A DNA stretch of 64,000 nucleotides. Origin: Muribaculaceae bacterium. GTDB taxonomy: Bacteria > Bacteroidota > Bacteroidia > Bacteroidales > Muribaculaceae. The notes below the pieces were generated by a model. The model saw only the letters and a list, made by a program, of their open reading frames with translations, made no database searches and had not been told where the DNA came from. Location: the NCBI GenBank assembly GCA_022509205.1, contig JAFLTR010000006.1, positions 1-64,000 on the forward strand. Reading direction: 5' to 3'. Within the stretch, counting starts at the first letter, position 1. Every line of letters begins with the position of its first letter. Positions 34,067 through 39,086 of the stretch are shown one piece after another. Position numbers and translations under genes: made by a program.

Positions 34067-34985
34067 AATATTTTTCCTTTGATTTGGTATCTTTCTATAA
34101 ATTAGGACAAGTCTCTTTCTTACTAGCTATAAATCAAATGTTTAAGAAATTGAGATTTATAGTATCATAAAAATTTGAGACTAAATAATTTAAATTTAAC
34201 AATTATTTTCCCAAAACACCGGGAAGCTGAAAAAGAGTCAATAGAAAAATTTCTTGGACAAAAGATGATGAGAATCCAATTATAAGATTGTAGAAGGAGG
34301 TTATGTTACTGAGAAGATTTGTTGAATCTTTACCTAATTTCATAAAAAATATTTTCAGGACTGGCAGGCTAATCAAGAAAGAAAAGACGATGAGGGGTAT
34401 GACCTAATGGATAATTTCGCCAAACAAATCAATGATTCTAATGCTATCGGATTCGGCATAAAGAAGAAATAAAGTTATCATTAATTCTATCAAAAACCAA
34501 AAACCTTATCGAAGTCAATAATAAATGCGTACTTCTTAGAAATCAAAGGAAAATTTATCCTAATTCATAACATCTTATAATATCCAAAAACTTCAAGGGT
34601 TGGTTAAAATTCCTTTTTTACGACTGTCCAAAATACAGTTTATCAAAGCCAAATCGAAGAAAATTCTTAAACGATTTAGGAAGAATTATCCGACTTTTAA
34701 TCTCGGTAATAGTGATTATTCTCCTCTTTCTTCTCTCTAACGATAACTAACATTTGAGAAAGAAAATTACTGACATGCAACATTCCGACCAATTATTTAA
34801 ATTATTCCCAAAGGAATAAAAGGAATCTAAAATAGGTAGAAGTTTAGGAATCAAATGATAGTAATACCAAATTTTGAAAACAAAAGTATCGATTTAAAAT
34901 TATTATATATTTCTACCATATTTATCATTATTTTCCTACAGCTTTTCAAACTTCCTTTTTGTTTTGTAGTGTAAAACCTTTTTAT
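34067..34985. other. AT-rich gene-poor edge of the accessory island
   Basis: About 0.9 kb of strongly AT-rich DNA with no intact gene. It contains short, repeatedly interrupted reading frames on the plus strand that look like decayed coding DNA (for example a HREAEKESIEKFLG-like phrase near 34220-34260 and the frame annotated separately at 34338-34472). I see no transposase, integrase, tRNA or inverted repeats that would explain the insertion. The 88-codon minus-strand frame at 34851-35117 lies across the promoter and start of the next gene and is not convincing. Confidence 0.5.
34338..34472 (+). pseudogene. C-terminal fragment of a decayed gene
   Basis: A frame open from 34338 to a TAA at 34472 has protein-like composition (FQDWQANQERKDDEGYDLMD, then FAKQINDSNAIGFGIKKK). 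It is preceded in frame by a stop and has no start codon. Other short frames upstream (YKIVEGGYVTEKIC, EKFLGQKMMRI) may belong to the same broken gene in other frames. I do not recognise the family. It is consistent with deletion debris at the island edge. Confidence 0.3.
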
Positions 34986-34993
34986 TACCTTCG
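34963..34993 (+). promoter_or_regulatory. Putative Bacteroidetes promoter of the glycosylase-like/deiminase pair
   Basis: TTTG (34963-34966), exactly 19 bases, then TACCTTCG (34986-34993), one base from TAnnTTTG. Transcription would start near 35000, leaving a leader under 20 bases before the ATG at 35018. This is one of the best-matched promoters in the window and suggests that the two genes are expressed. Confidence 0.6.
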
Positions 34994-35017: not shown

Positions 35018-35782
35018 ATGGGAAGACTGACTTTTGAACAATTCGAAGAAATGAGATTGCGTGAGTTGAAAAAATATTGTGAAGACAACAATTTGGATTT
35101 CGAACAAATAAGACCACTGACGATTATGAAAGAGAATCTTGATTTATCGGCTTCTCAAATTAATCTAAATTACCCATCCAAAGATGGCATTGAACTTGAA
35201 GCATTTGCTGAAAATCTTGTGACAAGTCTTATGGAAAATTTCGTGATAATTAAAGGAGATAGTTATTATGAGATCACGGATGCCGAGTTCTATTTCTTTG
35301 CCCCATATCATCAAGATATAACCGTTTATGATAGAGAGTTGGGACCGGGACGTTTCTTTTTCCATGACAGTGGTTTTGATATATCCTTTAAAAGCCATGT
35401 CACTTGGACAGATAAGAGGAAGAAGATAATTGACAGGGATAATAGTATATTCGGAGGTATTCTCGTTAGTGCTCTAATAAAGAAAGATCTAAAAGGGGAG
35501 AAAACTATTATCCAAGGTCCTAAACTATGTATGTGGGAGTTATGGGATTCTTTTAATGCTTTTGAACGTGTATCTGCGGAATATCCTGTTTTATTTTATA
35601 AACCCCTTGGAAATCTAAAAATTGAAGTTCTCCCTCGGCATTTTCCCATTAGAGATAAAGAGAGTAAGTTGAAGAGCCTCAACAAAAAGTTTAATGGACA
35701 AGAAAATACATGGGAAGATCTTAAGCATTTTCTTGACCTCAAATATCGTTTCCGGAGAACTGACCTCAATTCTTTGAAATAA
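35018..35782 (+). CDS. Putative 3-methyladenine (MPG/AAG-type) DNA glycosylase-fold protein
   Basis: A 254-residue protein with no clear annotation. From residue 62 its motifs follow the order of MPG/AAG glycosylases: AENLVTSLMENFV (helix before the core), YEITDAEFYFF (matching 'IVETEAY', with Glu90 at the catalytic glutamate), PYHQD (matching the 'D-x-A-H' His), GPGRFFFHDSGFDISF (matching 'PGTLYVYxxYGxxxCxN'), GGILVSALIKKD (matching 'GAVLLRAL') and IIQGPKLCMWEL (matching 'LCxGPxKLCxAL'). The fold is therefore inferred to be a compact, divergent base-excision glycosylase or a nucleic-acid-binding relative. About 60 N-terminal residues are helical and extra. The deiminase gene begins one base after its stop. 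Base use is AT-rich like the island. Function is unproven. Confidence 0.55.
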   Translation: MGRLTFEQFEEMRLRELKKYCEDNNLDFEQIRPLTIMKENLDLSASQINLNYPSKDGIELEAFAENLVTSLMENFVIIKGDSYYEITDAEFYFFAPYHQDITVYDRELGPGRFFFHDSGFDISFKSHVTWTDKRKKIIDRDNSIFGGILVSALIKKDLKGEKTIIQGPKLCMWELWDSFNAFERVSAEYPVLFYKPLGNLKIEVLPRHFPIRDKESKLKSLNKKFNGQENTWEDLKHFLDLKYRFRRTDLNSLK

Positions 35783-35783
35783 T

Positions 35784-36656
35784 ATGGAGATAGCTGACAA
35801 AATGTTGGTTGTTGGTTTTACGGATTATCTTGCTCGTAACAACCGAATGTTGGTAAGAGGGCTAAAAAGCCTGCTGTTGAGATATAAGACCCATTACGTG
35901 GTTATTAAGGACGCCTATGACAGATGGGCCAGAGATTTTATGCCTTTTCAGAGAAACGACGGAAAATTTATAGTTTATAAGTATGCTCCTGATTATCTCA
36001 ATGGTAAGGAGCGATATATTACTGATGTAGATGATGTTACAATCTTATGGCATGGAGGAAAATCCTTAGGAGGAATTAATGATTATCTTGGTCCCGATCT
36101 GATTCATACCGATCTAAAGATTGATGGAGGCAACCTTATTTCTTGTGTTGATAAAAACGGGAAGAATTATATAATTATGACTGACAAAGTCTTTCTTGAA
36201 AATGGGTCTCTTAAAGAAGATGATGTTATAGAGGAGTTAAAGACTAAATTCAAGTCTGATTTCATCTTTTTACCATGGGATAGAAGAGAACCCTTCGGGC
36301 ATACCGACGGGATGGTGAGATCCATAGGCGACGGCAAACTATTGATTGGGAACTTCAAGGAAGACAATCCCTTTTTATATGAAACTATAATGAGCAAGTT
36401 AACTCCTCTTTTTGATGTCTATGAATTGAGTTTCGGGAAAAATGTCAGTGAAAATAGCTGGTGTCATATAAATTACTTGCCATTAGATGATGCAATTATT
36501 GTACCCGGCATTGGAGAGAATTCCGATATAATTGCTTGTGAACAAATAGAAGCATTCACAGGGAAAAGATGCGAAATTCTTCCAATGGGAAATATTGTAG
36601 ACTGGGGAGGAGCCTTAAATTGCATTACATGGGATTTCAAACTGCCTCAAAACTAA
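35784..36656 (+). CDS. Guanidine-modifying deiminase (agmatine deiminase/PAD family)
   Basis: A 290-residue enzyme of the pentein-fold agmatine deiminase/Porphyromonas-type peptidyl-arginine deiminase family. All catalytic motifs are in order: RWARDFMPF (residues 47-55, with the WxRDxxP Asp), KIDGGNL (Asp114), FGHTDGMVR (His173, Asp175) and GGALNCITW with the nucleophile Cys280. Members hydrolyse guanidino groups, for example agmatine to N-carbamoylputrescine or arginine side chains to citrulline. It is about 60-80 residues shorter than typical agmatine deiminases, has no signal peptide, and carries no neighbouring polyamine genes, so a polyamine role is doubtful. It is coupled to the glycosylase-like gene with one base between them. 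Confidence 0.85.
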   Translation: MEIADKMLVVGFTDYLARNNRMLVRGLKSLLLRYKTHYVVIKDAYDRWARDFMPFQRNDGKFIVYKYAPDYLNGKERYITDVDDVTILWHGGKSLGGINDYLGPDLIHTDLKIDGGNLISCVDKNGKNYIIMTDKVFLENGSLKEDDVIEELKTKFKSDFIFLPWDRREPFGHTDGMVRSIGDGKLLIGNFKEDNPFLYETIMSKLTPLFDVYELSFGKNVSENSWCHINYLPLDDAIIVPGIGENSDIIACEQIEAFTGKRCEILPMGNIVDWGGALNCITWDFKLPQN

Positions 36657-36659
36657 TTG

Positions 36660-36708
36660 AAAGTTGAGGGTCTAAAATATATAAGATGGACCCTCAACTT
36701 TTTTTTCA
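36660..36708. terminator. Bidirectional rho-independent terminator
   Basis: A perfect 13-base stem, AAAGTTGAGGGTC (36660-36672) and GACCCTCAACTTT (36689-36701), with a 16-base loop. A T run follows on the plus strand and A-rich DNA precedes it. It separates the convergent deiminase and GIY-YIG genes and ends both transcripts. Confidence 0.85.
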
Positions 36709-36732
36709 TTGAATTTTATGTCAATTTAATTG

Positions 36733-37671
36733 TCAATTATTATTATATCCGTGTTCTAACGAAAGCATTTTCCTTTTCCAAAGGTTTTCTCTTTCCACAG
36801 CCTCTTGTTGGGTAATATTTGATTTTAATGTTTCTAAAATCGTCCATTGAAAATTTTTTATGTGGTATTGAGAATCTTTTTTTATTAACTTTTCCAATTC
36901 AACATTTCCTCCATGACCATCTTTACCATATTGAGACCATCTTTGAAATATTCTCTCTTTTCCAGATGTAGAGCCAACATACACCTTACCATTACTTTTG
37001 TCCGTTATAAGGTAAATACAATTTATAGCCTTGAGTACTTTAATCCAATCTTGATCTTTAAGAACTTTATTCAATTGCACAAAATCTAAGATAATATCCT
37101 CATAATTTCTGAAAACTGGTGTTCCATCTGATTTTGTTAGCCCTTCTTCTATTCTGAGTACTTGTCTTTCTTTATTATAATAAAGATACCAATTCAGTGG
37201 ACTTTTAGACCAATCGATTATAACTTTTTCTTCAAGAAATTGAAATTCAGACAAATGTCGCAGATCAAGTATTTCTTCCTCTTGTTTATGTGGACTTTGT
37301 TTACGACCCATTATTTCATAAATACCCAGGAACCGACTGGTAGACTCCTTTTCTCCTAAAAAAACAACCCAATATTTTATTTTATCAAACCTACCTTTCT
37401 TCTGTTCGCTTTGATATTTTTCGAATAAATCCCTTCGATAAATATAAAGTTCATAGATGTTTGAAATTCCTGGTGGCACAGGTTTCCCATCTATTAATAT
37501 TTCTTCTTTGCCTTTATTGCCCTTTTTAAGGTTTTTATCATTTTTTTTGGCTCTTTCTATTGTATAAGCATGTCTCACTAATTGAATATTCGACCAATGA
37601 GTATTATCAAAGTCTTTATTTCGTCCTTTGAGCAATGCCTGTAAGGTGATAATTGAATTTAGATTCTCCAT
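36733..37671 (-). CDS. GIY-YIG nuclease-domain protein
   Basis: A 312-residue protein. The C-terminal third is a GIY-YIG endonuclease domain: CIYLITDKSNGKVYVGSTSG (the GIY and YVG strands, from about residue 217), then RIFQRWSQYGKDGHGGNVELEKL with the catalytic Arg, an EAVERENLWKRKM helix carrying the metal-binding Glu, and the closing Asn-rich GYNNN. The N-terminal 210 residues, with FLGIYEIMGRK and LNWYLYYNKERQVLRIEEG, form a domain often found before this nuclease in phage and mobile-element proteins; its role is unclear. The gene follows the A1S_2505-like gene by two bases on the same strand. Likely a DNA nuclease, target unknown. Confidence 0.85.
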   Translation of the reverse strand: MENLNSIITLQALLKGRNKDFDNTHWSNIQLVRHAYTIERAKKNDKNLKKGNKGKEEILIDGKPVPPGISNIYELYIYRRDLFEKYQSEQKKGRFDKIKYWVVFLGEKESTSRFLGIYEIMGRKQSPHKQEEEILDLRHLSEFQFLEEKVIIDWSKSPLNWYLYYNKERQVLRIEEGLTKSDGTPVFRNYEDIILDFVQLNKVLKDQDWIKVLKAINCIYLITDKSNGKVYVGSTSGKERIFQRWSQYGKDGHGGNVELEKLIKKDSQYHIKNFQWTILETLKSNITQQEAVERENLWKRKMLSLEHGYNNN

Positions 37672-37673
37672 TT

Positions 37674-39086
37674 TTATGAAAGACTTACGTTAGTATAGTT
37701 AGTGTATCCTCTGTAATCGTCAAATCGTGCGTTGAAATTCATTCCGTTCAATTCGAAATCGCCTATCTCTAAAGCTATGGCATCATCTTCATTGGTATAA
37801 GTATCATGTAAGGCGGCATAAAATTTTATACCATCAACTATCGTTACCAAAAGATAATTATGTGTCGTATACATAACCTTTCTTTGGTTGGGATCATCGG
37901 GATCCACATACCACGATTTGATTCTTCCAATTTTAGTCATATCTGTTTTATTTAAAGAAGTTTCCTTATTTTTTTTGCAATCACCTTCTTCTATGAAAGA
38001 TGGTGTATGAGAAGCCAAGATCATTTTTTCTTCCTGAGAGATATCTCCGGGAAATCCACCTTGAAAACTATGGCAAAACATTGCCACATCAACAGGCTTA
38101 TTCCTGTGTAAATTGTAAAAGACAGTTCCAACTCGAGTCATTTTCCCTGCGTCTTCCGGGAAAAGGCAATGATTATCCAAAACAAATGCGTATCGTGCTT
38201 TCATATCATTTATAGGATCATTCCAACCAAAAGGTCCTATAGCCAAAAAAGTATCTCTATGGCCTAATTCTAATACATCTCCTGTAAATATAGCATCTCC
38301 ATAGGAATCTCTATAATGAGTCCGTACCCCGGCAAAAAGTACTTTTCTTAAACCTTGTTTCCTTTTTATCTCGAAGCCAAAAAACAACATCCTCAAAATA
38401 TCTGTGATGTAGTAATCGCTATCTTTCTCGTCTGTAAAAATATATAGGTCGCCATTATTTAACATAAAGCAGTCTCCAAAATCAGCAAATCCAAACCTTT
38501 CTTCTTCCGAGAGTATATATCTTATATTAATCTTGGGAAGATTACTTTTATCTCCCCTTGAAATTTCATCTTTATATTTTCTTGAAAGATAGACCAAGTC
38601 ATTTTCTCTGACTGCATTTAAATAATAATAGTCATAATCATCGGCTTTATCACCAAACAACTCTTTGAATGTATCTTCATCTTGAAGTATTAACTCAACC
38701 CATTTTCTTGGTAGCGAGACATTGTTCAATTTTATGGCTTCCTTGAATAAGTCAGACATATCGCCGTCATAAAATCCGGCTATTCCACATCCTATTCTGG
38801 TTACAAGGAAATGTTTCTGTGGATATCTCTTTGCATAACTTATAAATTTATCCACATAAGGTTTAACATCCTTCAATTCACCGTGCATGGTTGGAATTGC
38901 ATAGCATTTTCCTGTCATACCATCACCTTCACCCAATTTTGCACCAAATTTTCTATAGGCATATTTTGCAGCTCCTCCTTCATGATGTCCCTGAAGATTG
39001 CTGCCAAATACTAAGATTTCATCTTGATTTAAATGTGAGATGAAATCGGGGGATATTCTGAGACTTTTCATTCTTTCTCTTCCCAT
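37674..39086 (-). CDS. A1S_2505-like (phage non-structural/macro-like) multidomain protein
   Basis: A 470-residue protein. The first 145 residues match the A1S_2505-like family: DEILVFGSNLQGHHEGGAAKYAYRKFGAKLGEG, GKCYAIPTMHGELKDV and FLVTRIGCGIAGFYDGDMSDLF. This fold resembles macro domains and suggests nucleotide or ADP-ribose binding. The middle region (around residues 210-350) has the phrases LRKVLFAGVRTHYRDSYGDAIFTGDVLELGHRD and RVGTVFYNLHRN, and the C-terminus is beta-rich (LVTIVDGIKFYAALHDTYTNEDDAIALEIGDFELNG). I do not recognise those parts. It is the first gene of a two-gene minus-strand unit with the GIY-YIG protein. An alternative start is the Met at residue 6. Confidence 0.7.
   Translation of the reverse strand: MGRERMKSLRISPDFISHLNQDEILVFGSNLQGHHEGGAAKYAYRKFGAKLGEGDGMTGKCYAIPTMHGELKDVKPYVDKFISYAKRYPQKHFLVTRIGCGIAGFYDGDMSDLFKEAIKLNNVSLPRKWVELILQDEDTFKELFGDKADDYDYYYLNAVRENDLVYLSRKYKDEISRGDKSNLPKINIRYILSEEERFGFADFGDCFMLNNGDLYIFTDEKDSDYYITDILRMLFFGFEIKRKQGLRKVLFAGVRTHYRDSYGDAIFTGDVLELGHRDTFLAIGPFGWNDPINDMKARYAFVLDNHCLFPEDAGKMTRVGTVFYNLHRNKPVDVAMFCHSFQGGFPGDISQEEKMILASHTPSFIEEGDCKKNKETSLNKTDMTKIGRIKSWYVDPDDPNQRKVMYTTHNYLLVTIVDGIKFYAALHDTYTNEDDAIALEIGDFELNGMNFNARFDDYRGYTNYTNVSLS

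Follow-up and report, generated by a model that had tools for sequence, protein, structure and literature searches.

The closest described counterparts of the system analyzed here are the Brig glycosylases: Brig1 and Brig3 are anti-phage DNA glycosylases that generate abasic sites in phage DNA, their loci carry genes for ADP-ribosylglycohydrolases nearby, and the gene for Brig3 overlaps that of its partner, BapA, in a two-gene operon (PMC11078745, PMC13160076). We analyzed a window of 64,000 nucleotides (positions 1 to 64,000 of contig JAFLTR010000006.1, GenBank assembly GCA_022509205.1, a Muribaculaceae-like Bacteroidota of 2.3 Mb that is 88% complete) that encompasses two adjacent genes, which probably represent an undescribed bacterial immunity module loosely parallel to Brig. 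Gene 1 encodes a candidate nucleobase glycosylase related to the methylpurine-DNA glycosylases (MPG), and gene 2 a divergent deiminase-fold protein. Similarly to Brig1 and Brig3, glycosylase-type proteins that reside in defense islands, copies of this pair adjoin defense genes; similarly to Brig3, the glycosylase-like protein has an operonic partner; and in one locus (L114), the pair is followed by a gene for an ADP-ribosylglycohydrolase (PF03747, E 1.6e-75), the kind of neighbor that is present in the Brig loci. In contrast to Brig, the partner of gene 1 is a deiminase and the role of the pair in defense is read from gene context; furthermore, Brig belongs to the uracil-DNA glycosylase superfamily, whereas gene 1 does not and shows a profile-level relationship to MPG. 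A literature search found no description of a glycosylase-like/deiminase pair.

Gene 1 and gene 2 are evolutionarily coupled. A search of 200 relatives detected gene 1 in seven other genomes, with the deiminase adjoining in all seven, and a wider search that covered a genome contig collection and 395 Bacteroidia genomes yielded 54 distinct gene 1 relatives, 32 of which are adjoined by a deiminase of the gene 2 subfamily. The pair occurs in five arrangements, often with a 4-bp overlap: the usual order is gene 1 followed by the deiminase, the two being separated by -30 to about 90 bp, and sometimes the deiminase comes first or the genes are convergent or divergent. In a single case (L052), the two are fused into one open reading frame (ORF) of 514 residues. 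The reverse test gave a similar picture, as three genomes selected by a short, divergent PF04371 match and not by gene 1 (G144, G143 and G141) each have an adjoining gene 1 relative that had been missed by the single-sequence gene 1 search; in G032, no gene 1 relative is present beside the divergent short PF04371 deiminase. The coupling of the two genes proposed in a first-pass annotation of the window is thus borne out by the adjacency, the fusion and the reverse test, and the neighborhood search excludes the possibility that the homologs never lie side by side. The L052 sequence itself is an unannotated human-fecal record labeled 'Bacteriophage sp.'.

The distribution of the pair is patchy (8 of the 200 relatives; 15 of the 395 Bacteroidia genomes). 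The single-sequence gene 1 scan of the genome contig collection gave no match and an alignment query was needed, the first gene 1 alignment matched nothing in the viral contigs, there was no gene 1 match in plasmids, and the deiminase alignment produced 14 matches in the viral contigs. Many of the genomes are metagenome assemblies in fragmented form. Some solitary gene 1 copies (L035, L011 and L016) are truncated by a transposase or the end of a contig, and other solo cases are real; in L041, a gene for an ISL3-type transposase interrupts gene 1 and the deiminase is intact. The phylogenetic trees have weakly supported forks and long branches; in them, the window deiminase clusters with the L002/L028 set and the window gene 1 with L015, a discordance that may reflect either partner exchange or long-branch error.

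On its own, the gene 1 protein does not significantly match any Pfam family, a correction to the first-pass annotation, and its affinity emerges at the level of profiles. An hhalign comparison of 50 gene 1 relatives with 24 canonical Bacteroidota MPGs gave a probability of 96.2 (E 2.6e-9) over 152 columns, compared to 0.1 for the control with the reversed MPG alignment, and the aligned region runs across the MPG domain with the motif order unchanged. When the MPG profile was searched against 2177 other sequences, gene 1 relatives took all eight places immediately behind the true MPGs. PF02245 is the commonest Pfam match among the relatives (best E 3.7e-5), below the curated cut-off of 27 bits even for the best of them (L008, 23.6 bits) and with no match for the window protein. 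Glu90, which aligns with the Glu of the MPG 'EAY' motif, is invariant (53 of the 53 aligned relatives), Tyr92 is kept in 51 of these, and Gly119, Asp121 and Arg207 are nearly invariant. An attempt to equate Asp121 with a given MPG residue was abandoned as alignment-dependent. Residue 151, in the 'GGIL(I/V)R' motif that corresponds to the Arg-containing 'VLIRA' strand of MPG, is Arg in 52 of the 53 aligned relatives and Ser in the window copy, and because Ser151 replaces this near-invariant Arg, the window copy may be altered in activity.

The AlphaFold2 model of the gene 1 protein is confident (pLDDT 90.5), with a strand order that resembles MPG by eye and a compatible predicted order of strands and helices. 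The MPG relationship nevertheless rests on sequence profiles because none of the 50 best PDB matches in a Foldseek search with this model (best E 0.077) is a solved MPG. Of the MPG/AAG-like fold initially claimed, the profile-level relationship stood, and the fold itself is putative; likewise, the ordered MPG landmarks were recovered with respect to Glu90 and the motif order, the exception being the family Arg. In summary of this comparison, gene 1 shares with MPG/AAG the motif order, the E-x-Y catalytic motif, the GP motif and the C-terminal Arg, and differs in scoring below the Pfam cut-off, in the Ser for Arg, in the Foldseek result and in the tree, where the gene 1 relatives form one side, away from the canonical MPGs. 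These comparisons identify the gene 1 product as a predicted, very divergent member of the MPG superfamily, by a relationship that is remote but significant. No recognizable canonical MPG was found in the host genome, in an assembly that is 88% complete. Two giant-virus proteins, both uncharacterised (A0A1V0SB56 from Catovirus and A0A3G5A9Y1 from Hyperionvirus), match the gene 1 model in the Foldseek viral library with E 5e-6, and the MPG-like protein of L127 is extended at its N-terminus by about 200 residues.

The gene 2 protein scores 41.3 bits against PF04371 (cut-off 25), its model matches the agmatine deiminase structure 6b10 (E 3.5e-14) with a five-bladed fold, and D51, D114, H173, D175, N230 and C280 are present. 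The gene 2 product is a true deiminase-fold protein with a complete catalytic set, as first proposed, and the sequence motifs that had been named for both proteins are indeed found in the translations. Gene 2 resembles AguA in scoring above the Pfam cut-off, in the fold match and in the Cys, His, Asp and Asn residues, but its subfamily forms a separate clade (support 100), carries the signatures DGGN, GHxDGMVR and NCISW where AguA has EGGS, SHIDT and HCxTM, and the window protein falls far under the AguA equivalog cut-off (22.1 vs 381.8 bits). The window protein is also 56 residues shorter than the host's own agmatine deiminase ORF. Proteins of the gene 2 type are automatically annotated by NCBI as 'agmatine deiminase family protein'.

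Related deiminases are found in other settings as well. Distant relatives in phage contigs (L208-L214) lie beside genes that look like the DDAH/amidinotransferase type and the phosphatidylserine decarboxylase type, and possibly belong to a separate phage pathway. In the Flammeovirga plasmids L215 and L217, a partner-type deiminase is located between a gene for a 137-aa protein and an HNH-like gene, and in the Prevotella plasmid L216, such a deiminase has a 145-aa N-terminal extension and a C39-peptidase-looking gene downstream; gene 1 is missing in all three plasmids.

The neighborhoods of the pair point to genetic conflict. In L116, PARIS AriAB (E 6e-111) shares the strand of the deiminase at a distance of 45 bp, Tiamat TmtA (E 5e-255) is found in the neighborhood in L119, a gene for an MTase_II/PglX-type methyltransferase overlaps the start of gene 1 in L033, PADLOC candidates are located near the pair in L028 and L025, and a DUF262-type gene in L038 matches the Orf5 and SspE models. 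The L052 fusion resides in a contig resembling an integrative and conjugative element, together with a WYL regulator and genes that by eye are BREX-like; WYL regulators adjoin several copies of the pair. Also by eye, L202 and L203 are prophage-like contigs, the MPG-like gene and the deiminase of L201 form an operon with a CHAT-like protease gene beside a mobilization gene, and a lone deiminase in L205 is apparently inserted between type I restriction genes that read as hsdR and hsdM. PADLOC 2.0 contains no family for either protein up to E 1. The neighbors of the pair (125 proteins) match 82 PADLOC families at E 1e-10, compared to 6 for 130 neighbors of canonical MPG/AguA genes, which speaks for the defense reading. 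Small genes with similar C-terminal motifs are present near the pair in L020 and L052 and are a possible third component. Another L052 gene, read by eye as an ADP-ribosylglycohydrolase, was dropped from consideration as Pfam gave no support.

From these contexts, we somewhat favor a role in conflict or defense. The fuller proposition, namely that the two genes make up a conflict module that has spread horizontally and is most likely directed against phages, in which the glycosylase-like gene 1 protein is accompanied in its action by the gene 2 protein, appears to us evenly balanced, and so, if a conflict or defense role is granted, would be base excision by gene 1. In the model that we infer with respect to defense function, base excision, substrate nature and physical cooperation of the proteins, the gene 1 protein would bind an unusual purine-type base or nucleotide of invader nucleic acid via the Glu90/Tyr92 site and would probably excise the base, leaving abasic sites. 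The gene 2 protein would take part in this response as a Cys-His-Asp hydrolase that modifies guanidino or amidino groups; it would either process such a group on the target or contribute a second activity triggered by the glycosylase-like protein. Glycosylase activity, like the repair of a guanidino base that was initially envisaged, is conjectural. That gene 2 processes such a group on the same target as gene 1 is a tentative proposal that we doubt somewhat, and the most specific version, a new type of phage defense whereby a hypermodified (for example, guanidino- or amidino-bearing) phage nucleobase is jointly recognized and attacked by an MPG-superfamily protein and a guanidino/amidino-hydrolyzing pentein, seems unlikely. 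That each protein also occurs solo suggests independent activities for the two.

Several observations weigh against the conflict interpretation. The window copy of gene 1 combines Ser151 with the lack of a Pfam match, no solved MPG is among the structural matches described above, and the gene 1 profile retrieves no PDB sequence. The remaining 22 of the 54 gene 1 relatives have no adjoining deiminase, and deiminases are found without gene 1 in L113, L204, L205, L206 and L215-L217, so that neither gene strictly depends on the other. The contrast in PADLOC families between the neighbors of the pair and those of the canonical genes is overstated because single proteins match many PADLOC models (the count is of families, not proteins, and one methyltransferase matches 19 models), and the control set is taxonomically unmatched. 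Finally, many environmental copies are located among housekeeping genes.

This last observation, together with the solo gene 1 copies, would fit ordinary lineage-specific metabolism or repair, that is, a base-repair enzyme of minor importance that simply happens to be inherited together with an enzyme of agmatine or arginine salvage. We consider this explanation unlikely given the patchy presence among Bacteroidia, the fusion, and the locations on plasmids, in prophages and in defense islands; moreover, the host encodes a canonical agmatine deiminase elsewhere (G000:C22, E 4e-104), because of which canonical polyamine metabolism was judged unlikely. Detoxification, whereby gene 1 would cleave the N-glycosidic bond and gene 2 the guanidino group of the same small toxin, such as a guanidino-nucleoside antibiotic or a DNA-binding amidine, and the pair would confer resistance rather than phage defense, is supported in that a single molecule would be the substrate of both reactions, the fusion suits consecutive steps and the distribution is patchy and mobile. 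There is a precedent in NnhA, a distant relative in the guanidino-modifying superfamily that degrades a nitroimidazole antibiotic (PMC11659421). This possibility is rather unlikely all the same, considering that the neighbors are phage-defense genes, not transporters or resistance genes, and that each gene is found alone, too.

It is quite improbable that gene 2 is an amidinotransferase that installs a guanidino group which gene 1 then handles: in 30 of the 31 partner deiminases, Asp114 stands where the 'EGG' motif of AguA has its Glu, and amidinotransferases such as AGAT carry Asp at this position, but the closest folds of gene 2 are agmatine deiminases, with the amidinotransferase HsvA ranking far below them among the structure matches. 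An involvement in ADP-ribosylation, with the pair engaged in a conflict with a toxin or a phage and processing ADP-ribose linked to arginine or to a base (an N-glycoside carried by a guanidino group or a base), could draw on the true ADP-ribosylglycohydrolase gene in L114 and on the genes of the A1S_2505 type near the pair in the window and in L115; it is nonetheless very unlikely, as few loci are concerned, the look-alike gene of L052 has no Pfam support, and no ADP-ribosyltransferase was noticed near the pair, although no search was aimed at one. As for the defense or toxin-antitoxin-like unit initially envisaged, defense fits the neighborhoods, whereas a classical toxin-antitoxin pair, to which two small adjacent and often overlapping genes on mobile DNA could be likened, is highly improbable and in its strict, obligately paired form was rejected because both parts occur alone, and furthermore both resemble enzymes, their order and orientation vary, and a fusion exists.

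Should the pair indeed function as an anti-phage module, glycosylase-based immunity would extend from the uracil-DNA glycosylase superfamily, represented by Brig, to the MPG superfamily, and guanidino-modifying enzymes, for which a literature search found no link to phage defense, would enter the repertoire of bacterial immunity. The module would then also point to an as yet undescribed chemistry of phage nucleic acids in Bacteroidota of the gut and of aquatic habitats. The pair, the fusion and the signature motifs provide a ready search profile.

At the window locus (Table 1), the one-base gap between the two plus-strand ORFs, the well-formed promoter, the strong terminator and the AT-rich island that had been described were all confirmed, the promoter in the form of a promoter-like element. 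This element upstream of gene 1 (TTTG-19-TACCTTCG) fits the -33/-7 promoter consensus of Bacteroidota; a sigma-70 scan was uninformative at this site. The terminator hairpin folds with -22.8 kcal/mol (z -5.2), and none of 200 shuffled sequences was as good. The GC content is 35-37% in the gene pair, 31-35% in the next two genes, which are on the minus strand, and 45-50% in the flanking chromosomal genes, so that these four genes form a low-GC block (31-37%).

Table 1. Features of the two-gene locus in the window and of additional loci
Sequence	Positions	Strand	Feature
Window	34963-34993	+	Bacteroidota-type promoter-like element, TTTG-19 nt-TACCTTCG, 5/6 scored positions
Window	35018-35782	+	Gene 1, 254 aa, ATG start; MPG-superfamily-like protein, candidate nucleobase glycosylase
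Window	35784-36656	+	Gene 2, 290 aa, ATG start; divergent PF04371 deiminase-fold protein
Window	36659-36710	+	Intrinsic terminator, 16-bp hairpin then T8; separates the gene pair from the convergent Uzume-like gene
Window	36733-37671	-	UzuA-like GIY-YIG gene
Window	37674-39086	-	470-aa protein
L052	6972-8516		Fusion of gene 1 and deiminase
L052	3798-4466		Small gene near the pair
L020	8610-9894		Small gene near the pair
L127	1480-2745		MPG-like protein with N-terminal extension
L201	2803-4831		Genes for a CHAT-like protease, the MPG-like protein and the deiminase in one operon
L205	1037-6341		Deiminase alone, apparently inserted between type I restriction genes

The first of the two minus-strand genes is convergent with the pair and encodes a GIY-YIG protein that matches the PADLOC model of UzuA (E 3.7e-72); this gene is absent from the 100 congeners compared. 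The N-terminal domain of the second gene's product is of the A1S_2505 type (E 1.5e-37), and an A1S_2505-type-looking gene is likewise present near the pair in L115.
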